Assembly: GCF_910592395.1 (NCBI RefSeq)
Contig: NC_088309.1
Location: forward strand, 13,950,599-14,014,598
Direction: 5' to 3'
DNA length: 64,000 nt
DNA from: Lineus longissimus
Taxonomy: Eukaryota > Nemertea > Pilidiophora > Heteronemertea > Lineidae
Shown: in pieces, positions 11,091 to 63,960 of the stretch
Layout of the letters: every line of letters begins with the position of its first letter
Numbering within the stretch: position 1 is the stretch's first letter
Position numbers and translations under genes: made by a program
The notes under the pieces: model-generated
Database searches by the model: none
The model's input: the letters and a program-made list of their open reading frames with translations, nothing else
What the model was told of the DNA's origin: nothing

Positions 11091-12155
11091 GCGTCGTCGT
11101 CGTCGTCGTCGTCGTCCGTCGTCCGTTAGCAGGGCACGTTTCGTAACTGTTAGAGCTATTGAGTTGAAACTTGGTACACATGTACCCTTATGTAATGACA
11201 CCTGGGAGACCAAGTTTCGGTCCGATTCGTTTCATGGTTTGGCCACCAGGGGGCCAAACGTTAAAATTGAAAATATGCAATATCTCCCTCAATAGTAGTC
11301 GGGAAATTTTGAAAAAAATATGGTAGGTACTTCTAGCAAAGGTGCATCATATATCCTCCGGGTTTTTGATTTGACCTCCTTTTCAAGGTCACAGAGGTCA
11401 AATGGTGTAAATTGGCCGTTAGGATGTAACGATGGCACGTTTCTAAACTGCAATGACTATTGATACCAAATTTGGTACACATTTACCCCTTAGTCAGCTG
11501 ATCTCAGGGACCGAAGTTTGGTCCAATATGATTCACCACTTGACCACCAGGGGGCAAAATCCAAAAACCTTAAAAATGTGATTATTCCTTAACTTCTTGC
11601 CCGATTGCCACCAATTTGATATCATGGGTACATCTAACCACCATACAGTATATGTCACACAGGTTTTTAATTTGACCTTCTTGTCAAGGTCACAGAGGTC
11701 AAATGGCGTAAATTCGCCGTCAGGCCGTAACAATGGCACGTTTCTTAACTGCAATGACTATTGATCACAAATTAAGTACACATGTACCCCTTGGTCAGGT
11801 GATCTCAGGTACCGAAGTTTGGTGCGATCTGATTTGCCGTTTGGCCTCCAGGGAGGGGGCCAAATCCTAAATTCTTCAAAATGCCATTATTCCTAGTAAT
11901 GACTTGCCCGATTGGCACCAATTTTATATCATAGGTACATCTAATTCTAACAACCATTCAATGTGTCACCCGGGTCTTCTTTGATTTGACCTACTTTTCA
12001 AGGTCACAGAGGTCGAATGTACTGTAAATTGGCCATTTTGGGGAAATTGTAATTGCTTGGACCTACATCAAACCTAACACTACATGACACAAGACCATGC
12101 TCTTTATCCATCTTTCCTCCACATGAGGTGAGCACAATGGCCCTGGCCATTTCAT
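10996..12155 (+). repeat. ~1.15-kb CACCT/AGGTGAG repeat family, copy 2
   Basis: Begins 'agctcacctcttagcagagg' (a short palindrome) and ends 'aggtgagcacaatggccctg', so the ends contain AGCTCACCT and AGGTGAGC in inverted orientation. Inside are a (GTC)n microsatellite and about three ~300-bp modules, each with a 'tcaaggtcacagaggtca' block. Nearly identical to copy 3 at 33376-34531 and to inverted copy 4 at 62935-64000. It has no coding capacity, so it is a non-autonomous element of unknown class. Confidence 0.85.
11042..11121 (+). repeat. (GTC)n microsatellite inside repeat copy 2
   Basis: About 26 near-perfect GTC units. The long Arg-rich open frames on either strand are artefacts of this array. 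Copy 3 lacks the expansion and copy 4 has it at the window end. Confidence 0.95.
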
Positions 12156-17135: not shown

Positions 17136-18146
17136 TTGTATCCTCATATAGAAAAGTTACAAGACAATGCATACAGAGCATCATTACAAAATACATGGGA
17201 TTATTACTCATCATACTGTATACTGAAAGTGTCCCTTCTTCATGAACTGCATAAATGGTTCAGCACTAATATACAGAAACAGTGCAATGACATAGAATCC
17301 AACCCTGGACCAGTCAATCCACAAATATCCAAAGTTGTCCAAGGCCATTTTCATCAAGCTAATCTCAACCTATTCTCCTCAGAATCAGCTGGGAAACAAT
17401 GCACTGCAAATGCTGCTACTTCTGTAATGTATTCCATGATCCTTTCACCTTCACATTGGATTCCATCAGACCTGAATGACATATTAAGAAATGGTGACAT
17501 GTTATATAAAAGTATACAAATTCACACATATCTTGCTGTTGATGAAATACCAATATTTATCCAGTCTTTTCATCACAATTTCAAATTGAAACGTTTTGGA
17601 CCATCACAAAATGTTATTTTGAACCAACAAAATGTTCAGTTCCCTAATATATCCCTTGAACATGCTTTTGATAACTTGTCAACTTGTACTAGAGCAATCC
17701 TCATTATTGCAGGAGAAACAATTGCAGTGATACATGATGAAAACTCTTACTACATTTTTGATTCACACAGTAGAGACAGATATGGAAATCATGTACCTGA
17801 TGGAACATCAGTTTTATTAAAATTTGATAACCAGCTCCAGCTTAACATCTACATTATCAGATTAGCTGAATATCTTCATCAAAACATCTTCGAAATAACT
17901 TTCTTTAAGATCAGTATCCTTACAGAAAAAGCTTTCTCCATAGCAGTCAAGAGACAAAATCGTCAGCCTCCTGCCAGTATCCATACCACAAATGAACAAA
18001 AAAGGATAATCAATGAAAATGAAAAACATATAATGTCAAAACTGGCAACAGCCCCTACTCTAACTGAAAATGAAGTCAAAGAAAATCAGATAAAGACACA
18101 AGCAAAGCCTTGCAAATCTAATTTGGATGATTCCAAAATATTCTAA
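17136..18146 (+). CDS. Helitron 2 cysteine-peptidase-like protein with 2A-like motif
   Basis: A 336-codon open frame. Residues 50-59 read C-N-D-I-E-S-N-P-G-P, matching the 2A (StopGo) consensus D-x-E-x-N-P-G|P. If active, the ribosome would release after Gly58 and restart at Pro59. The peptidase part follows: SAGKQCTANAATSVMY (candidate nucleophile Cys), DLNDILRNGDMLYK, then SYYIFDSHSRDRYG (candidate His/Asp) and GTSVLLKFD. The homologue in Helitron 1 (7917-9416) has the same blocks but no 2A motif in the readable part. The array-encoding frame follows at 18298 after a gap with several stops. The peptidase assignment is from motif order and is tentative. Confidence 0.65.
   Translation: MYPHIEKLQDNAYRASLQNTWDYYSSYCILKVSLLHELHKWFSTNIQKQCNDIESNPGPVNPQISKVVQGHFHQANLNLFSSESAGKQCTANAATSVMYSMILSPSHWIPSDLNDILRNGDMLYKSIQIHTYLAVDEIPIFIQSFHHNFKLKRFGPSQNVILNQQNVQFPNISLEHAFDNLSTCTRAILIIAGETIAVIHDENSYYIFDSHSRDRYGNHVPDGTSVLLKFDNQLQLNIYIIRLAEYLHQNIFEITFFKISILTEKAFSIAVKRQNRQPPASIHTTNEQKRIINENEKHIMSKLATAPTLTENEVKENQIKTQAKPCKSNLDDSKIF
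17289..17312 (+). other. 2A-like ribosome-skipping motif
   Basis: Codons GAC ATA GAA TCC AAC CCT GGA CCA give DIESNPGP, preceded by Cys-Asn. This is a full match to the 2A core D-x-E-x-N-P-G-P. 2A-like motifs are known in some marine-invertebrate non-LTR retrotransposons and NLR-type proteins. I do not recall one in a Helitron. Confidence 0.75.
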
Positions 18147-18297
18147 GACCAGCAATGAATGACCACCAATTAAATGACCACACAATTACTAATGACAAGC
18201 ACACCACTGAACCAACAAAAAGAACACAACAATAATTTGAACATCTTTCACAATATTGTGCTGATCAACAACAGAAGTTAAAACAAAGAAATAGTAT

Positions 18298-19250
18298 ATG
18301 AAACAATATATGCGTAAAAAACGAGAAAATCAAGAATATAAAGCAAAAGAACTGAAAACTAAACAGACCCTTCGTAGTAATCGAAATTATAAGACTAAAG
18401 AAAAAGAACAAGAAACACAGAGAAGACAACACATTCGTATTGATCCAGTAAATAAGGCAAAAGAATTAAAAAGAAAACAACAGACACGTGCCAATCCACA
18501 ATACAAAGCGAAAGAATTGCAAAACAAGCAACGTGTTCGATCTGATCCAGAATATAAAGCCAAAGAACTGCAAAAGAAGCAAACTGTTCGATCCAATCCA
18601 GAATATAAGGCGAAAGAACTACAGAGCAAACAAAGTGTTCGATCCAATCAAGAATATAAAGCCAAAGAACTACAAAGCAAGCAATGTGTTCGACCCAATC
18701 AAGAATATAAAGCCAAAGAACTACAAAGCAAGCAATGTGTTCGATCCAATCAAGAATATAAAGCCAAAGAATTGCAAAACGAGCAACATGTTCGATCTGA
18801 TCCAGAATATAAAGCCAAAGAACTGCAAAAGAAGCAAACTGTTCAATCCAATCCAGAATATAAGGCGAAAGAACTGCAGAGCAAACAAAGTGTTCGATCC
18901 AATCAAGAATATAAAGCCAAAGAACTACAAAGCAAACAATGTGTTCGATCCAATCAAGAATATAAAGCCAAAGAACTACAAAGTAAGCAATGTGTTCGAT
19001 CCAATCAAGAATATAAAGCCAAAGAACTACAAAGCAAGCAATGTGTTCGATCCAATCAAGAATATAAAGCCAAAGAACTACAAAGCAAACAATGTGTTCG
19101 ATCCAATCAAGAATATAAAGCCAAAGAACTACAAAGGAAGCAATGTGTTTGATCCAATCAAGAATATAAAGCCAAAGAACTACAAAGTAAGCAATGTGTT
19201 CGATCCAATCAAGAATATAAAGCCAGAGAACTGCAGAGCAAACAAAGGTT
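18298..19250 (+). repeat. 51-bp coding tandem array of Helitron 2, left part
   Basis: About 16 units of 51 bp (17 codons). Consensus product: V-R-S-N-Q-E-Y-K-A-K-E-L-Q-S-K-Q-C. Units at the 5' side are diverged and those at the 3' side nearly identical. The array is charged, probably helical, and sits between the peptidase and the Cys-rich/Rep region. Related Lys/Arg-rich repeats precede Rep in other animal Helitrons. Because 51 is a multiple of 3, a second frame is also open (F-D-P-I-K-N-I-K-P-K-N-Y-K...). It is interrupted at 19250 by the Harbinger element. Confidence 0.85.
19248..19250. repeat. Target-site duplication GTT (left copy)
   Basis: GTT at 19248-19250 and 22696-22698 flank the Harbinger element; three-base duplications are typical of PIF/Harbinger. 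Confidence 0.8.
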
Positions 19251-19534
19251 CGTATTCTAGAAGAATCCTAAAAGCGTAAGGTGGCCCTAAAACGGCCCTT
19301 TTAGTGACACCTTCACCATTTTCTATTCTAGAAGCATCCTAAAATACCGCCAAAGGTATACCTGAAAATCCTCTCCTAATGCAAAGGTTGACCCATTTCT
19401 AGAAGGTTTTTTAGGATAAGGAATTCCTAACTTTGGGCTCATCTCCACCTTAAATCGTTAGGATACCCTTGGGGTATCCTAAAAGTGTTCCTTACAGGCT
19501 GATTTCTGTCACTTGTGCACAGACAGCCGAGAAG

Positions 19535-22411: not shown

Positions 22412-22697
22412 CGTGTCCTGCCTGACCTCTGCTCGCAGTGCGTGGCAGGCTATTGTTCAACGCCCGGCAACATGGTTAGGAACACCTTCAGGTCCACCTG
22501 AAGGAAAGTGTACTTTCCTAAAGGAACTCCTCAGGCGAAGTCGTTCCTTTAGGTTCACCTTACGAAAGGAAAAGGATTAGGAAACTTTCAGAATTGGCCA
22601 CAAGAAAAGTTCACCTTACGATAGGTTAACCTTAGCAAAGTGGACCTTTGGAAAGGTTCACCTAACCCTATATTTCAGGAGTCTTCTAGAATACGGT

Positions 22698-23445
22698 TCG
22701 ATCCAATCAAAAATATAAAGCCAAAGAACTACAAAGCAAACAATGTGTTCGATCCAATTAAGAATATAAAGCCAAAGAACTACAAAGCAAGCAACATCTT
22801 CGATCCAATCCAGAATATAAAGCAAAGGAACTACAAAGCAAGCAACATCTTCGATCCAATCCAGAATATAAAGCCAAAGAACTACAAAGGAAACAAAAGT
22901 TTCGATCCAATCCAGAATATAAAGCCAAGGAACTACAAAGGAAACAAAAGTTTCGATCCAATCCAGAGTATAACGCCAAGGAACTGCAAAGCAAACAGAC
23001 TGTTCGATCCAATCCAGAATATAATGCAAAAGAACTGCACAGGAAACAAGAAGTACGATCACATTTACATTACAAGACTATAGAAAAGAAAACACAACCA
23101 TCAAACAAACGAAACCTTCGTACTGATCTTAAATATAAAGCCAGATAACTTACTCATAAACAACAAGCTCGATCTAAGCCACAAAGACAAGTTCAAGAAA
23201 AAATGAACAAACAGAAAAGTCGTAATAATCCACACGTACACACTATTGAACAAAATAAAGATGTCTCGAGAAAAAGGAATCTAAGGTCTGATACTGAATT
23301 TCAACAAATTGAAAGAGACAGAAAAAAGTTGAAACGGACAACGAACAGCAACTATAAAGATCACCAAAAACTACTAAGTAAAGTACAGAAGCAAAGATCA
23401 AGAACTGATAATGATTACAAATCTAATCTAAAGAAAAAGCCCTAA
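22698..23445 (+). repeat. 51-bp coding tandem array of Helitron 2, right part, and following basic region
   Basis: Seven more 51-bp units (22698-23060) continue the array after the Harbinger insertion, with Y-K-A-K-E-L-Q-R-K-Q type repeats. A diverged Lys/Arg-rich region runs to about 23445. One stop lies in the first unit (TAA near 22760) and another near 23147. Confidence 0.8.
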
Positions 23446-50363: not shown

Positions 50364-50368
50364 CTATT

Positions 50369-50815
50369 TATCCCTTCTCCTAGTGTCAGTCACAGAATAT
50401 CCAATGCTCGGATATCAATGAATAGGAATTGCCTAGCTATTTATCTCATCTCCTGATGTCTGTCACAGAATATCCAATGCTCGGATATCAATGAATAGCA
50501 ACTGCGTGGCTATTGATCTCATCTCCTGATGTCAGTCACAGAATATCCAATACTCGGATATCAATGATTAGCAACTGCCTGGCTATTTATCTCATCTCCT
50601 GATGTCTGTCACAGAATATCCAATACTCGGATATCAATGATAAGCAACTGCCTGGCTATTTATCTCATCTCCTGATGTCTGTCACAGAATATCCAATACT
50701 CGGATATCAATGAATAGCAACTCTATGGCTATTTATGCCAATCTCCTGGAATCGGGCAATGAATATTCACTGTCAAACTATTTATGTCATATCCTGGAAT
50801 CTGTCAAAGAATGCC
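50369..50815 (+). repeat. Minisatellite, ~62-64-bp units
   Basis: At least five units of 'cacagaatatccaatgctcg' + 'gatatcaatgaatagcaact' + 'gcctggctatttatctcatc', the last ones degenerate. Continues the array at 41545-41710 across the retrotransposon. Confidence 0.9.
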
Positions 50816-53404: not shown

Positions 53405-53407
53405 AAA

Positions 53408-53981
53408 CACAGCGCTGCGAACCTAGGCTGTAAACTGGAATACGCGTAGTTCCATAGTTCACCGCACCTGCAGTCAGCGCTACGGCCGTTCGGCGTTACT
53501 AAGGGCAACACGAAGATTCAACACGAAGTCGGGCCGAAGTTCGGGACGTTACGTCATCAGATCGAGAAGAGAAACAATGTTTAGACAGGCATAGCGTCAC
53601 AACGTCACGTTCTTGTCCTACATGTCCTGTGCTACGCAATGTATTTTTATCGAATGTACTGTGAACTGAGTTGTAGCAAAATACATGGGAGAGGGCATGA
53701 TGAACTATATCAGAGAATGTTATGAATGAGAAAAACAATAGTATACATGAGAAGAATCAAACAACACATAGATGAAAATAAATTATGTATTTATTAACAA
53801 AATAAATATTACAATAAAATACATTGGAACCCATTCTATATCATCATGGCAAACATGTGGAACCAGGGCCTGTTGAATAAGTCTCTTCTGAGTTCTTTTT
53901 AAAAAGTTCAAATCAAATTTTACTAGCACCATCTCAACTAAGAATATTCAAGAAAACGCTAGATTCACCCTTTTCTGTCAG
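53408..53981. other. Left end of CACAG element, non-coding
   Basis: Holds the TIR, the subterminal block and AT-rich sequence. Any first exon of the plus-strand gene should be here, but none is clear. Confidence 0.4.
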
Positions 53982-55278
53982 GAGACAGAAACTTTGCTGC
54001 AAACACAGCTGCAGAAATTTGACCCTGCCCATTATGGCCGGGCTGATGGGCGTCGCCATGAGGTCATTCAGGTAAGCCTGCCAGTACCAGCAATTTATTC
54101 CAGTTGTTGTCCCAGTGCTATGTGGACCACCAGAGTCTTGCTTGGTGATAACCAGGTTGATGCGGTGTCACAACACAGCACGTCACAATCACCAGCAGGC
54201 TATTCATGGTTGTGACGTCCTCGCCAGTGACACTTCAACCCCTGTGGAGGACACTGCATGGAGAGCAGCAAGATGATACAACAATGGAGACATCACAATC
54301 GCCTGCATGGAGGGCAGCAGGATGTTACAACAATGGAGACATCACAATCACCTGTGCACTCACCTACACAGGTGATTGTGACAAAGGAAGACCATTGATA
54401 TGACATGATGTCCCTGGTTGTGACGGGCTGTTAATGGATGTGATATCATATTCTGAGTTCCCCACAGGCAATTGCGCCCCGCAGAGGACCAGGGAATGTC
54501 TCAACCATGGAGACAGCACATCACAATCATCTGCATGGTTGTTTCATATGTTGCCCTAGGTTGTGACAGACCTTCCTTAGTTGTGACACCATCGCGTGTT
54601 CTTCAGATGGCCCCTTTGACTAGGTGTCACCTGCTTGATGGTCGAATGGGACGCCCCTTAGGTGGCATATTGGACAAGGGGTCCTTGGATCATACTATCA
54701 TAGGCCTATCTCTGTCATATTAGCAAAGGCTGATATACAAATGAAACTCTTGCGTTGATGATGGATCGAAGTCCCATGGACATTATTGTCTCTAAACCTT
54801 TGCACATGTCTCTCAGGAGTAGTACATCATTGATCTATTTCAAATTTACTTTCAGGTTTATCCATTGGTGAAAGACGAGCTCAAGTACCTCCGCAAGGCA
54901 ATACTCAGAAAGGTGTCCTTACGTGGGAGGAGGAGGGTGCACACTGCCAGAGACACCCCTAGAGCAGTTTTTGATGCCTTGGACAGGCTCATTTTCTCCA
55001 ACAGCCACAGGACCACCAAGAAAGAAACCAGGGCCACAGTTACCATCACTATTACCAGCCAGGAGAAGGTCATGTCCATTTTCAATGCTTGGGCCTGTGA
55101 GGAGAAGGATGCCCCCGAGAGACTGTCTCTGCTCAGGAAAGAATTCAAGGACGGCTGCAAGGCAGAGGTGGAAATCGATGAGGACCATCCGTTCATCATT
55201 GTCTACAAAAAGAACTTCGATAGACTATTCTGCACTTGCACGTGGGTGGTTACCAACAAACATGGAATCCCACAATAA
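53982..55278 (+). CDS. Unknown two-exon (or more) protein of the CACAG element
   Basis: Exon 53982-54071 (acceptor ctgtcag, donor CAG|GTAAGC, 30 codons: ETETLLQTQLQKFDPAHYG...) joins in phase to exon 54856-55278 (acceptor tttcag; 140 codons and stop). The product is basic then acidic, with ELKYLRKAILRKVSLRGRRR, RATVTITITSQEKVMSIFNAW, EIDEDHPFIIVYKKNFDRL and a final TWVVTNKHGIPQ. I do not recognise the family. It has no membrane segment. Its start is unknown; upstream exons are expected. As the only clear plus-strand gene in the element it may be a second transposition protein. Confidence 0.5.
54257..54352 (+). repeat. Two 48-bp tandem units in the intron
   Basis: 'catggagagcagcaagatga...' and 'catggagggcagcaggatgt...' repeat with a 48-base period. 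Confidence 0.8.
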
Positions 55279-55391
55279 AAATATCTGAAATAAGAAAACA
55301 AACCTTGTTACCTTATTCATTGATATCCAGTATATCGGTAGTTGGACAGATATTCTCATTCAAAACGTAACGTGAATTCTAGCTTATCAGG

Positions 55392-55837
55392 CAGTACAAT
55401 CTTTAACTCCACCCCTGCCATGGAGGAAGCCAGGAGATGTATCACAGTCAAGGTATGTGACATGGTGTCTGCATGGTTGAGACATAATGTTGTCCATGGT
55501 TGTTACATGCTGTCCATCGCTCGGACAGGCGACACAATAACCAGACAGGTTGTCCATGATCAGGACATGCGTATCACAAGTGTCATTAAATGTTCCAGCC
55601 ATTGACTAGCAAGCAATATGCCTGATCTGGGGGTGGGGGGGGGGGGGGCTGTATTTCTTACTTATGAATAATGATAATGTGAGGAAACAAAATTGAATTG
55701 ATGTAAACGTTATATTTGGGTATTCACATTTCACATTTCTTACACATTTAGCTTAACATTCACTCTTCACTTGTAGGCTGAATCTTGATCGCAGCACTAT
55801 CCGGTATCTCATTGATGGGCTCCTACCCAATAACACA
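55392..55837 (+). CDS. Candidate two exons of a further plus-strand gene
   Basis: Exon 55392-55454 (acceptor cttatcag, donor GTATGT) reads AVQSLTPPLPWRKPGDVSQS. It joins in phase to exon ~55778-55837 (acceptor cttgtag, donor GTAAAA), which reads RLNLDRSTIRYLIDGLLPNN. The splice sites and phase agree, but the exons are short and the family is unknown. A third possible exon is at about 56059-56110. Confidence 0.25.
55629..55648 (+). repeat. Poly-G tract
   Basis: A run of about 20 bases, all G apart from one T. A second, similar tract lies at 61426-61440. Confidence 0.95.
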
Positions 55838-56109
55838 GTAAAATGTAGGTCAACATAGACAACTGTTACTGTCTCTAACTGAAACCTTCATGTACCTGCA
55901 TTAAAACAAATCTTGGAGATCAAGCCGGTAAATATAATGCCCTGACATTGAAACTGTCTGTGTGAAAGGCCGCCTTATTGATCCCCTTTGAAAATGATAG
56001 ATGCTTCACCATGGTGTTACTCACCCCAAAGTAATACTAGTAGATTTATGCAGATATGGAGGCATTCAAGGAACACAGTCGTACACCACCTGCCTTTTCC
56101 AGTGATGTG

Positions 56110-57247
56110 GTGAGAGTGATAGCCTTCATCAGTTCAAATCTGTCTTGTTAACACCAAGATGAGGGTCAATCATCACTTTCAAGAAGGATTCGCCAAGGCA
56201 CCTGACACAGATATCACATACTGGACATGCATGCACCCTCAGGCAGATGTCAACTGTCGGAGTTATAGCTACATATTAATTCATTTACACAATAAACAAT
56301 TGAGAATGGACGGACCCTCAGACAGGTGTCAACTATCAATGTCAACTATCAAGATAAATGTCTGAGTAATAACTACATATCATTTCATTTACAAAATAGA
56401 CATTTGAAGAATGGACGGACAATGTCACTGGACATGCTGGAAGTGACAAGACAATGAATGATATGAATAAAGACGAGCAAATACTTTTTTCTAAAACTCT
56501 GCATACATTTACACTAGGCCTTTCTGTACAAAATTGAAGTAAAAGCATTCGCTAGTCTTTATTCATATCGCCCAATGTCACTGGAAGTGCTGCATCTTAT
56601 TTCATTTAACAAAGCGAAGAAAACTATTCTACTCATCAGCAGAATTGGACAAGAAAGCATGCAACATATACAAGGTTAGATTGAAGTCCAACACTCATGC
56701 CACTGAAGACGGAAATTATTAAGTACTGTAATGCAGGGTGTCTCAAAAACTCTTACATCCCCCTCCCCCCTTGAAGGTTATTTTCCAGTCGCTAAGGTAA
56801 AGGCGAAACATAAGGTGTGATTTCCGCCACAACCGCATTCCCTAATGCTCCTCACTTCATGTTGAACTATTGCACTGCCAGGCCCACAAATGCATTGCTA
56901 TTGACTTAAATAACAAGAACCTTGCAAACGTTTTTGGGAAAGCTTGTAGCTGAGTACCATCCTCCGTGGCATCATTGTCCAGTGCTCATGCTACCACTGG
57001 CCAATGAAGCAATATTATAAAAGTGCATGCCAGATAGATTATAGACGCATACCTGTTGAATTCACCATGATCTGAAACATCAATTTTAAAACAGATCAGG
57101 AATGCAATGCAGACTCTAAAACCTGGTACATTGAGTGTCCTGTTGTTCACTAGACATTGTCATCAATACTATATAATATCAGCACTTGAAATTTAAACAT
57201 ATTTAATGGCTATTGAATGAACCGACACATTGCAATACACATTAAAA
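56110..57247. other. Non-coding stretch inside the CACAG element
   Basis: Between the convergent genes; no supported coding. A degenerate direct repeat covers 56230-56420 ('cctcaggcagatgtcaactgtc' and 'cctcagacaggtgtcaactatc'; 'attaattcatttacacaata' and 'atcatttcatttacaaaata'). Confidence 0.45.
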
Positions 57248-60200
57248 CTACTTGCTCTGAAACATCTTTCTCAATTCATGACTAATTTTCCTTTCGCGGC
57301 AACTTCGTGCAATCATCTTGGTAACAGGGTGGTTGCAGTAAATACATTCATCCTCATTCTTCTTCAAACCACACCTACACGATTCGGCCGAAATTGGGTT
57401 AACATGATACTTGCTATTATCACGTTTTTTTGTCATTTCTTTGGCCTCACCCTGCAGATCATTTTCTCGAACCCAGTATAGCTGCACATATTCGTGCCTA
57501 AACACGCATTTCCACCTATTTTGGGGAGTTGAAAACTTTGAATATAGTGCAACCTGCTTGTGCTTTGCCTCTCTGCCCTGCATTGTATTGATACCTAAAC
57601 CAACACCAAATTTCCAGTATATCAACTTGGCATGGTATGGGACAATATATCCAATATGCCAGGTGGTGAGCGAAGGTTTCGTAAAGAACAGTGCATGGGT
57701 GGCGTGGTATAGCTCACACACATCTTTCAGTTGCTCAAGTTCTGCTTGACTGAACTTGATTTTTGACCAAAGGGCAATTGCTTCCCTGAGCAAGGTCCAT
57801 GCATAGTGAATGAGTAGCTGGCGGAATTTCAAGTGAGTTGTATTACTGGTCTCATCTAAGACTTTTGTGAGATTGGGGAACCCTACACAAAATTTCATCG
57901 AGTCCTCACCAGTGAAGCGAATTGTGTAGTCTTTGAGTCCACCAGCAGACGTCCTGGCTTCTCTCAGCCATTTACCTGCTTTCATTGTTTCTCTCAGGCA
58001 GTGCAGATACTTACCCAAGGGACAAGCTATGAATTCCTCATCATTGAAGGGCTTTTTGAGCACTTTGTCATCGGTTCTCTTCAAGCCCTCAAAGAGAACA
58101 ATCTTATTCAGCTGCTGACAGGCATTATTTTTCAAATGCAGTGGCTCCACAAACACTTTCTCACAATACTTACCCAGAATGGGTCTATGTTCTTGTCGAG
58201 AATGCATGCCTTTGATAGCGTCTAGTATCTTGGCCCTGTTCGTCACGTTCTTCTTCAGACTTATTACTTTATTAGCATGTTCTAACCTCTGAAGATAACC
58301 CCATGGTTTCCATGTGCTCTTCTCGTCTGTACCAAAGGATGCATTGAGGGTACCAAGCTCATCCTTATGCACATTGCCAAATGTGGAGGGGTATGTGGCA
58401 GCATTTGACAACTCCCCACATGCTATCACAGCCCATTTGCAATCAGCTGGGACTAGCTCAAGTCTAAATCTGACAGCCACTGACCCAATAGTAAACTCCT
58501 TCTTCTCAATTTCTTCTAACTCAGCTATGATCCTTTCGAGTTGGGATATGAACACTGGATCGTCTTCAGTAACATCTGCCCCAAACAGCAGAAAGTTATG
58601 ATCACAACTACCGACCTTTCCAAGTACATTTAACTCTTTCAGTGCCCAGGATTTGGGCATTTTTGGGCATTGTCACTACCCAAAATCTCACAAAAATAAT
58701 TGAGATACACTCATCAAAATTCTTCAAAACCTTTGTCTTTACCTCCTGTTTCAATAAAACAGCAGTAATAAGTAGGGGCATACTAGGATTTTGTTCTAAA
58801 TTTTTTTGAGGGAGTGGTATTTTTGGCCGATTTTCACCATTTTTCACCTAAAATGAGGGGTGGCAAACCCCACCCCACCCTCTCAGTCGAAAAAATTATT
58901 CAATTTGGACGCCCCAGGCCAGAGAAACCATATGAACCACATTTGAGTAGCTGGGGACATCTGGTGTCGTCTGGAGGAACTAAAATACCTTAATATTTAG
59001 GACGTACATGTACGTCCTTGGGCACTGAAAGAGTTAAGAAAGAAAGTGGGAGGGATGTTTGGGTTTTGAACTTACCCGACGGGGCGCCGTCTGCACCTAT
59101 CGCAATACAAAATTCTCCCCGAGGCTTATTGAACCAACTCAGACCGATTCCACCATCTTTGGATAGCACTTCATCGATGCGTAGGTACAAACCGGCTAGT
59201 TTCAGCAAAGTAGCCTCAACATTTCTATAACAACCACTGATCCCTTCGACAGATGTGGACGCAAGACTTTCCTCAATCTTGTCAATTTCTTCCTTCATTT
59301 CCTTATAAGTGAGTAACTCAGGTTTGGCAACACCTTTGTCAGCCAGCCTAATAGCACTGTACTTCCTGCTGCTGATCAAGCCACCTTTGTACAACACTTT
59401 CACACTTCTTACTATATTGGAGTGTGTGCGTCTATTGTGAATCACTTGCCTTTTCATCACCTTACCTTGGCTAACTACCTTTCTGCATTTCTTACTATTC
59501 TTAACATACACCTTCAGTTCAGCAGGACTAGTCAATTGTACCAGAGAGTGCCACATACCATCTTTAACATTTTGCACATCACCACCATGCACCGATTTTA
59601 AAGCCGTAACAGTTTTTTTAACGCGACTGCTAGCTGTCTTCGGATCCAATAGGGTAGTGTCAGTGTCATTTGGAATAACTCGAGTTGGAACTGTCACTTT
59701 CACTTCAGGGCCCCTCCTGTTTCCTTTCTGGTCTACTTGCATCAGTTGATTGGCTGGATCAAGCGCTACTTGTGTTGTAGTTTCAGTTGTTGCAGTTCTT
59801 ACATCGCACTGTAGTCTTTCTCTCCATTCAATCTGAAGTTTATAACTAATGTAAGTAAACATATGTATGAGCAGCTGAAGATCACCAAGCAGGAAAGAGG
59901 GCAAATTTAAATACTACTAGTGCCAGTGTAATGTGAAGCTCTGTTAACAACTGACTGGGCATGAGACAGGAGGAAGCATCTGACATCATTTCTACTCACA
60001 TCTGCATTCAGTTCTCTCACACGATCTTCTTTCTCTAAAATAGTATTCTCCAGCTGCACAACTTGCTTTTGGACCACTTTCATTGCACTGGAGTGAGCCA
60101 TGTCAAGCCTGGCCTCTTTCTGGGCGCGCATGTACTGCCCTACATTCCAACTGCTATGTTTTCCCTGGGGCAAAATCAAGTAAAGGTTATCTCAAAACAT

Positions 60201-61242
60201 TGCAATCTTGACTCATTGCAAACCATAGTTAAAAGATATTCACATGCACTGATTCAGTACCGGTAGGTTGTTGGTTACCACCAAGGTTAAAGACCTGCAC
60301 CGCAGTTGGCATTATGTTATGTCAAGAGAATTGAGACAAACATCAAAGCCACTGTTGGAAAGAATTCATTGGCCAAGCACAGTAATATATCATGGTGTCG
60401 TGTTTCCAGTTTGACACCTCTCAATACGTATCAATAACTCTGAAAAAGGCAGTGCCTTATCAGTGTTGATTGTATCTTATCCACATTATATATGTTACAG
60501 TAAGTATTGCTGATTACCTCTTGCGTTTTCTTCTTCTTGTTCTTCAGTTTTTCAAATTCTTTGCAATAAAAGTCGAACACAATGTTGCTGTCCATACGGA
60601 TCTGGCTGCCTTCATCCCTGTTGAATTTAGTGCAGTTGTCTCGAACAAGTAGCATGTCAGCATTGAATTCATCGAGATTATTGTACTGGTTGCCCTGAAA
60701 ACGTTGGGAAGATGAAAAGACAGGCACTAAACAAGAATCTACTTAGTTCATCAACAGAAGACACGGGATCTGGAGGAGGGGGAAAATTCATGAGTGATTT
60801 GCATGTTAACTGAATAAACAAACGTATACATGTAGTGACAAAGATCTCATTTACATTTAGTTTCTCCTGGATAGTTGTAAAATCCATTGGCTGATCAATT
60901 TCTTCACAATACCCCGGCACATCATCAGGATTTACTGAAATGAGACAAATTCATGTATTGTACTGTGATCAGAATAGACATCAATTCTCATCAACATGGC
61001 AAACTCTTATACGTGTATTTCATTGCTTCAACTTCGAATAGGTAGGCCTACATCACATGAACTGATTGGAGTTACTGGTACTATAAGTAGTAATCAGTTT
61101 TACCTGGAAACCTAAACCAGCCAGAGGGGTTTCGGCCATCTCTAGCCACTCTGTTTCGTCCTCCCTGGTAGTGGAAAATCTTGCGAAGGAGTTCAGTGCA
61201 CTCCCCAACCTTCCCTTTGTCCATCGCCTGCGAGACTGCCAT
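57248..61242 (-). CDS. Bromodomain protein with RAG1/CMC-like putative transposase domain, five exons, MITE-interrupted
   Basis: Exons 61242-61104, 60934-60855, 60694-60518, 60164-60000 and 59832-57248; all junctions are GT-AG and phases agree. Without the MITE (58634-59033) and one TTAA the sum is 914 codons. Residues ~40-125 form a bromodomain (GWFRFP, PGYCEEIDQPMDFTTI, EFNADMLLVRDNC, acetyl-lysine-type Asn98). ~150-187 is a coiled coil. The large C-terminal domain has FCIAIGADGAPSG (Asp435), LLFGADVTED (Asp472), FVEPLHLKNNA (Glu615, LH), INTMQGREAKHK (Glu807, His810) and Cys 871/873/882/885. Spacing and the LH and E-x-x-H/N-K motifs recall RAG1/Transib/CMC transposases; this is inference. 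I recall relatives with GADGAP and MQGREAKH motifs as uncharacterised proteins in corals and other invertebrates. The start has good context (GTAATGG). Confidence 0.75.
58634..59033. mobile_element. 400-bp TTAA MITE inside exon 5
   Basis: Terminal inverted repeats CTCTTTCAGTGCCCA (left) and TGGGCACTGAAAGAG (right), 15 of 15, flanked by TTAA at 58630-58633 and 59034-59037. The TTAA target suggests mobilisation by a piggyBac-type transposase. It brings stop codons into the host reading frame, ending it at 58990. Confidence 0.93.
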
Positions 61243-61267
61243 TACTGTGTTAGTGCCTGAAATAGAG

Positions 61268-61751
61268 ACATGTATCATTATTAAAAAACCTCAACCATTT
61301 CTGTAGAGTATTGTAGGTAGCGTTTCTAGATGTCATGGAAGTGTGAGGCTAGCCTGCAAAAATGGACATGGATTTATGAATGCATGGTTTGCACGACCAA
61401 AGCCATAGCCTCGGCCAGAGCGTCCGGGGGGGGGGGGGGGATTTGTGATATCGGTTACAGCCGTGTGACCCCCCCTTGACCCCGCCTCCTGTTGGAGGGG
61501 GCCGGGTGCGAAAATTGTCGGAAACTGTTCCTTTACTATGCCTATCGGGTACGCTAAAAAGAACAACAGGCAGGGACAGGGTTACAAAATAGGCTTATGG
61601 CATGGTCACCATGCCATAAGCCTACGAGAGTGTGGAACCGTGTGTAAAACGTAGAGAGGTCAACCCTCTGTGCGCACTGCTGCCATCCTGCGGCAAATTA
61701 CGGAACTGATGAGGTATGATGCGACAAGATCATCAGAAGTGCTGCGCTGTG
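61268..61751. other. Right end of CACAG element, non-coding
   Basis: Contains the upstream region of the bromodomain gene, a poly-G run (61426-61440), a 35-base palindrome (61590-61624), the subterminal block and the TIR. A further 5' exon is possible because an acceptor-like ttcag precedes the ATG. Confidence 0.5.
61590..61624. repeat. Perfect 17-bp palindrome
   Basis: 'taggcttatggcatggt' and 'accatgccataagccta' are perfect inverted repeats around one C, about 130 bases from the right end of the CACAG element. Confidence 0.95.
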
Positions 61752-62934: not shown

Positions 62935-63960
62935 GGCCATTGTGCTCACCTCATGTGGAGGAAAGATGGATAAAGAGCATGGTATTGTGTCATGTAGTGT
63001 TAGGTTTGATGTAGGTCTAAGCAATTACAATTTCCCCAAAATGGCCAATTTACAGTACATTCGACCTCTGTGACCTTGAAAAGTAGGTCAAATCAAAGAA
63101 GACCCGGGTGACACATTGAATGGTTGTTAGAATTAGATGTACCTATGATATAAAATTGGTGCCAATCGGGCAAGTCATTACTAGGAATAATGGCATTTTG
63201 AAGAATTTAGGATTTGGCCCCCTCCCTGGAGGCCAAACGGCAAATCAGATCCCACCAAACTTCAGTACCTGAGATCACCTGACCAAGGGGTACATGTGTA
63301 CTTAATTTGTGATCAATAGTCATTGCAGTTAAGAAACGTGCCATAGTTACGGCCTGACGGCGAATTTATGCCATTTGACCATTGTGACCTTGACAAGAAG
63401 GTCAAATTAAAAACCTGTGTGACATATACTGTATGGTGGTTAGATGTACCCATGATATCAAATTGGTGGCAATCGGGCAAGAAATTAAGGAATAAACACA
63501 TTTTTAAGGTTTTTGGATTTTGCCCCCTGGTGGTCAAGTGGTGAATCATATTGGACCAAACTTTGGTCTCTGAGATCACCTGACTAAGGGGTAAATGTGT
63601 ACCAAATTTGGTATCAATAGTCATTGCAGTTTAGAAACGTGCCATCGTTACATCCTAACGGCCAATTTACACCATTTGACCTCTGTGACCTTGAAAAGGA
63701 GGTCAAATCAAAAACCCGGAGGATATATGATGCACCTTTGCTAGAAGTACCTACCATATTTTTTTCAAAATTTCCCGACTACTATTAAGGGAGATATTGC
63801 ATATTTTCACTTTTAACGTTTGGCCCCCTGGTGGCCAAACCATGAAACGAATCGGACCGAAACTTGGTCTCCAAGGTGTCATTACATAAGGGTACATGTG
63901 TACCAAGTTTCAACTCAATAGCTCTAACAGTTACGAAACGTGCCCTGCTAACGGACGACG

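Follow-up and report, generated by a model that had tools for sequence, protein, structure and literature searches.

A bromodomain-led transposase with a RAG1-like predicted core fold and a convergent second gene in a DNA transposon of the ribbon worm Lineus longissimus

We analysed a stretch of 64,000 nucleotides from Lineus longissimus (contig NC_088309.1, positions 13,950,599 to 14,014,598 of the forward strand; hereafter the window, with position 1 its first letter), in which an element of 8344 bp lies within a Helitron/PIF1 gene. We consider it very probable (roughly 0.9) that this element is a cut-and-paste DNA transposon with two convergent genes, of which gene 1 encodes a DDE transposase with a RAG1/Transib core fold, led by a bromodomain in the window's family, and gene 2 encodes an accessory protein. 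Several families of the element have moved within the genome, with precise ends and duplications that are mostly of 3 bp; a close homologue is predicted to fold like RAG1, and a set of candidate catalytic residues is conserved. The ends are two-part and asymmetric, the bromodomain recurs between families and a second gene accompanies the first.

Mobile copies and two-part ends

The window copy and its ends comprise the following features.

53408..61751, no strand: whole transposon copy, 8344 bp, within the Helitron/PIF1 gene
53405..53407, no strand: left target-site duplication, AAA
61752..61754, no strand: right target-site duplication, AAA
53408..53418, + strand: terminal inverted repeat, element 3' end, CACAGCGCTGC
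61741..61751, - strand: terminal inverted repeat, element 5' end, CACAGCGCAGC
53447..53460, + strand: second end block TAGTTCCATAGTTC, at base 40 from the 3' terminus, as in related copies
61695..61708, - strand: second end block CAGTTCCGTAATTT, at base 44 from the 5' terminus

The original prediction had described 11-bp ends, an AAA duplication and restoration of the Helitron reading frame upon removal of the element, and all three were borne out. The two terminal repeats are identical at 10 of 11 positions, AAA is present beside both termini, and the flanks joined in silico with one AAA give a Helitron/PIF1 frame that is unbroken over the junction; a separate stop lies further on, away from the junction. 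When up to one mismatch is allowed, the 64-kb window contains the pattern CACAGCGCWGC at no positions other than 53408 (+) and 61751 (-).

Searching the L. longissimus genome (391 Mb, 30 contigs) at the protein level gave 63 matches, and we examined the DNA of 20 loci together with the window. We could define both ends in 12 of these 21 copies (window, C10, C3, L013, L014, L015, L016, L017, L021, L026, L027 and L020), with lengths of 9702 bp for C10 (locus L010), 12415 bp for C3 (locus L011), 10348 bp for L013, 6576 bp for L027 and 9872 bp for L020. All 12 complete copies start with CACWG at both ends, and thus have CAC...GTG termini, and 9 of the 12 are flanked by exact 3-bp repeats: AAA, GTA, ATT, GAA, GTG, TAT (ATA in the transposase direction), ATA, TCT and ATA. 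The ends were chosen without reference to the flanking duplication; at the base composition of the window, nine or more exact 3-bp repeats would arise by chance in 12 independent cases with a probability of 2.5e-14. The recurrence of ends and duplications in other copies, which had been proposed as a check, is indeed observed. Moreover, the six copies of family B (L014, L015, L016, L017, L021 and L026) share 98-100% identity along 7.3-8.1 kb and have sharp edges, and several of them have long open frames in the core exon; related copies with long open frames thus occur elsewhere in the genome. This near-identity and the open frames suggest recent activity, and with recent activity of family B the native sequence may serve for biochemistry.

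The first seven bases found among the ends are CACAGCG, CACTGTG and CACAGCA, the last at one end each of C10 and L027. At locus L024, the sole end found (position 231) starts with exactly CACAGTG, the heptamer of the V(D)J recombination signal sequence (RSS); CACAGTG is given as the consensus RSS heptamer in PMC8289069.

The second conserved block that had been predicted inside the termini is also present, CAGTTCCGTAATTT at base 44 of one end and TAGTTCCATAGTTC at base 40 of the other, with an approximate consensus of YAGTTYCRTANTT. In the window, C10, C3, L014, L015, L016, L017, L021, L026, L013, L027 and L024 the 3' block begins at base 40; it has the form YGGTTTCC, likewise at base 40, in L020 and, by eye, in L018. 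Eleven of the 12 complete copies (window, C10, C3, L014, L015, L016, L017, L021, L026, L027 and L020) have the beginning of the 5' block at base 44, whereas L013 and L012 have it at base 43. The asymmetry, base 40 at one end and base 43-44 at the other, is found in 12/12 complete copies, and corresponds to spacers after the first 7 bp of 32 and 36 bp (32/35 in L013). A strict block pattern overlooked the 3' block of L013 and L024, and a looser pattern recovered both. The looser end patterns required a block within a distance range, and extra internal matches were set aside (in L012, L013, L019, L020, L023, L025, L028, L029, L033 and L038); for L027 and for the 5' end of L020, the end-finding pattern already required the second block, so these two lend weaker support to its position. 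Scanning for end pairs matched L013 with a false partner and produced weak pairs in L018 and C17.

The transposase gene and its bromodomain

We aligned 36 of 40 transposase proteins (alignment A2; P0028, P0035, P0039 and P0040 were left out) and assigned the catalytic residues by order, conservation and secondary structure. The features of gene 1, with counts from A2, are listed below.

61104..61256, - strand: transposase exon 1, ATG at 61242-61240
60855..60934, - strand: exon 2, bromodomain part
60518..60694, - strand: exon 3, bromodomain part with the CxxFN motif
60000..60164, - strand: exon 4, coiled-coil-like linker
57248..59832, - strand: last coding exon, transposase core with RAG1 fold (fold from homologue P0001), split by an inserted element at 58630-59037
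59089..59091, - strand: candidate catalytic Asp 1 (GADGAP, residue 435), 36/36
58565..58567, - strand: Glu, putative equivalent of BbRAG1L Glu764, 36/36
58442..58444, - strand: candidate catalytic Asp 2 (VPADCKW), 36/36, after model strand 292-300
58136..58138, - strand: His of the LH motif (L405 H406), putative equivalent of BbRAG1L His894, 36/36
57569..57571, - strand: candidate catalytic Glu (GREAKH), 32/36, gap in the other 4
57326..57380, - strand: C-terminal Cys/His cluster CRCGLKKNEDECIYCNHP, approximate, placed by hand

Gene 1 has four introns with AG/GT borders. It had been described as a multi-exon gene of 914 codons; the multi-exon structure stands, but the length of about 914 codons holds only if a 408-bp insertion in the last exon is disregarded. 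The inference that this gene is the transposase is supported by the mobile copies with CACWG ends and by the predicted RAG1 fold of a close homologue. In a comparison with solved structures, the model of homologue P0001 matches RAG1 first, over 463 residues of the core fold, followed by RAG1L and Transib, in agreement with the RAG1-like fold that had been expected. Kinship with the P element or Hermes (hAT) was rejected, the structural match being much weaker than that to RAG1.

The catalytic residues of RAG1, the enzyme that rearranges antibody genes, are D600, E662, D708, H795 and E962, and the order D, E, D, H, E is conserved in A2 as it is in RAG1L, a putative correspondence drawn from order, conservation and secondary structure. 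The RAG1 counterpart of the Glu at 58565..58567 is presumably Glu662. The earlier assignment of Asp435 as first acid and of the GREAKH Glu as third agrees with this conservation, but the second acid, placed before at Glu615 or Asp472, is most likely the Asp of VPADCKW. The active-site residues described for BbRAG1L include Glu764 and His894 (PMC7204232). A C(2)C motif is absent between the second candidate acid, D304, and the third, E604, in all 36 rows. The conserved H583 is present in 31/36 rows (4 gaps, 1 Tyr), with a His 4-5 residues earlier in 11 of these 31; some H(3-4)H anywhere past LH occurs in 22/36 rows.

The spliced first three exons match the Pfam Bromodomain with an E value of 1.3e-19, and among PDB chains polybromo scores best by sequence (1.1e-30, summed over six domains), followed by BAZ2B (2e-15). 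The Asn of the bromodomain CxxFN motif binds acetyl-lysine, and this motif with its Asn is retained in the window bromodomain. A profile built from the window, P0038 and P0003 located a bromodomain in 10 of the 20 loci: L009-L011, of the window's family; L019, L020, L023 and L028, of one family; L022 and L024, of another; and L025. In these four Lineus families the domain lies upstream of the transposase core.

A tree of 26 rows (9 loci and 17 of the 40 proteins; L012 and L023 were dropped for length) places the Lineus rows and P0001 in a single clade with support 100/99. The bromodomain-bearing families of L022 and L025 lie near the base of this clade, which makes an early gain of the domain followed by later losses plausible; the tree needs two changes and does not settle the matter. 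L018 was scored as carrying the bromodomain, although none was seen in its own copy; it aligns only partially to the L020 bromodomain family.

The second gene and the state of the window copy

The remaining features of the window copy are as follows.

53846..54071, + strand: gene 2 exon 1, frameshifted relative to the C10 copy
54856..55278, + strand: gene 2 exon 2, convergent with the transposase gene
58630..59037, no strand: later, nested piggyBac-like miniature inverted-repeat transposable element (MITE), 408 bp, with a 19-bp perfect inverted repeat starting TTAA
61590..61624, no strand: 17-bp perfect foldback at the 5'-deletion junction

Gene 2 (53846-55278, + strand), which the original prediction had not described, encodes a protein of about 200-215 residues (215 in the C10 copy, spliced by hand). 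By tblastn it was found in 18 of the 20 loci, clearly only for exon 1 in L027, and was not found in L012 and L019. Three other family versions of the protein are 34-41% identical to the C10 version, and the only database homologue among the 4558 candidates scored is P0041, also from Lineus. The gene 2 protein has no Pfam match, and the tag stored for P0041, PF26709, has no match in the local Pfam library. The structure model, with a predicted local distance difference test score (pLDDT) of 41.9, is too poor to judge a kelch/RAG2 relationship and was not used. Because its position is that of RAG2L in RAGL transposons, our guess is that the gene 2 product assists in binding the ends or capturing the target.

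The window copy is a broken copy. The MITE that splits its core exon is absent from the relatives L009, L010 and L011, and a stretch of about 1.8 kb (a size taken by hand from coordinates) that the C10 copy carries close to its 5' end is missing. The foldback at this deletion junction may be a remnant of gap repair by template switching that followed excision.

Elsewhere in the window, a 51-bp tandem repeat forms two arrays of the same kind (18491-19252 and 22696-23049), with a strong skew of A over T at 18001-19000. Tandem repeats with a 301-bp unit occur at two distant sites (11361-12019 and 63043-63838), and a 73-bp tandem array of 5.3 copies lies at 50364-50748, close to the Helitron gene.

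Relation to known systems and rival explanations

The element probably works like Chapaev, CMC and Transib, although we file it under none of them, because no sequence tie to RAG1/Transib was detected, C(2)C is absent and the upstream His is found in 11/31 rows. With RAG1 and the RAGL transposons, including ProtoRAG, it shares the predicted core fold and the order of five candidate active-site residues, a CACWGY start near the RSS heptamer (exact at the L024 end) and an arrangement of two convergent genes, which in RAGL transposons has RAG2L opposite (PMC7204232). ProtoRAG ends likewise consist of a heptamer and a second element, with spacers of 27/31 bp whose spacing matters for activity (PMC8289069), and the spacers of the present element also differ by 4 bp (32/36; 32/35 in L013). 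Unlike RAG1/RAGL, the element has 3-bp rather than 5-bp duplications (5 bp in 0/12 copies), no detected sequence similarity, no C(2)C, a bromodomain on the transposase, a gene 2 without a Pfam match and a second block that differs from TR5 and the nonamer. From Transib it differs in its 3-bp duplications, additional gene, bromodomain and lack of C(2)C.

Several results weigh against our interpretation. In three of the 12 complete copies the exact repeat is not 3 bp long but 2 bp (L015 and L021) or 4 bp (C3), and both ends remained undefined in 9 of the 21 copies (L009, L012, L018, L019, L022, L023, L024, L025 and L028), with a masked stretch near L009 and with flanking DNA extended on both sides for L022 and on one side for L019 and L023. 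The fold model is that of homologue P0001 rather than of the window protein, and the catalytic residues were assigned without active-site superposition. The A2 profile found no RAG1 or Transib chain in PDB at E ≤ 10, and hhalign against two mammalian RAG1 rows, a very shallow profile, gave a probability of 0.4%. The profile scan found no bromodomain in 10 of the 20 loci (L012-L018, L021, L026 and L027), so the domain is not required in every family. Pfam showed no significant RAG1/Transib link for the 36 A2 members among the matches listed (25 of 36 Pfam families). As a yardstick, phmmer with human RAG1 reaches HzTransib at an E value of only 0.005.

The element is possibly a new superfamily. 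We found no report of a comparable bromodomain-bearing transposase in the literature searched; its apparent novelty rests on these literature searches, with Repbase/Dfam outside the comparison. Tentatively, and at less than even odds, the element may belong to a sister lineage of RAG/Transib, ranking as a superfamily, in which the RAG plan was either retained or invented anew without RAG2, with heptamer-like ends, a block at 32/36 bp, a convergent accessory gene and, on the transposase, an acetyl-lysine-reading bromodomain instead of the RAG2 PHD finger. The RAG2 PHD finger reads H3K4me3. An alternative, also at less than even odds, is that it is a divergent member of a superfamily catalogued in Repbase/Dfam, most likely CMC (Chapaev) or another such as Academ; its mode of action would be the same. 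The hallmarks described for Chapaev, CAC...GTG ends, 3-4-bp duplications and an LH motif (PMC4079192), recur here (3 bp in 9/12, 4 bp in 1/12 and 2 bp in 2/12 copies; LH in 36/36 rows), the CMCT clade is reported to have CA..TG ends and 2-5-bp duplications (PMC12730594), and Chapaev and Chapaev3 are counted as clades of the Transib superfamily in PMC4411706. The solved structures listed include no CMC transposase, which is no evidence of absence; RAG1 might therefore be the closest solved match for any protein of the CMC group. Against this alternative, the TWA of Chapaev3 does not occur among the nine exact 3-bp duplications, the transposase core has no Pfam match among the matches listed, C(2)C, said to be common to the CMCT lineages and RAG1 (PMC12730594), is found in 0/36 rows, and Chapaev/Chapaev3 differ with respect to the second gene and the bromodomain. 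The H(3-4)H motif gives a mixed picture, ending at the conserved His in 11/31 rows. Of the RAG1/CMC-like character originally claimed for the protein, the predicted RAG1 fold holds, CMC fits the ends and the LH motif, but C(2)C does not fit.

It is improbable that the bromodomain exons derive from an adjacent or captured piece of the host and lie outside the transposase protein. These exons are separate from the core exon, their joining is predicted from gene models, and half of the related loci show no bromodomain; but a divergent family has the identical exon order with nearby junctions, the NCBI Lineus model P0038 joins bromodomain and core, as does P0003 in part (a partial domain, under the Pfam cut-off), and the exons sit between the inverted repeats. 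That the whole is a host gene, with ends and duplication arising by chance, has a negligible probability; it is refuted by the 12 copies, which have their ends in common but sit at separate sites in unlike flanking DNA, and restoration of the Helitron/PIF1 frame upon removal also argues against it.

For the transposon, we envisage that the transposases would pair a 5' and a 3' end through the CACWG terminus and the inner block that lies 32 or 36 bp past the first 7 bp. Excision of Transib follows a nick-hairpin course, and excision here may likewise proceed through a nick and hairpin, as in RAG, with insertion at a presumed 3-bp stagger; the bromodomain would dock the complex onto acetylated chromatin.

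If the element is indeed a sister lineage of RAG/Transib, then unequal two-part ends would be older than RAG2. With a separate animal lineage that combines a RAG1 fold, 3-bp insertions, asymmetric RSS-like ends, a convergent partner gene and a bromodomain, one could test directly which components of the RAG system are ancient, how stagger length is set, and whether transposases took up chromatin readers repeatedly. This ribbon-worm element may thus show how RAG-like machines diversified.

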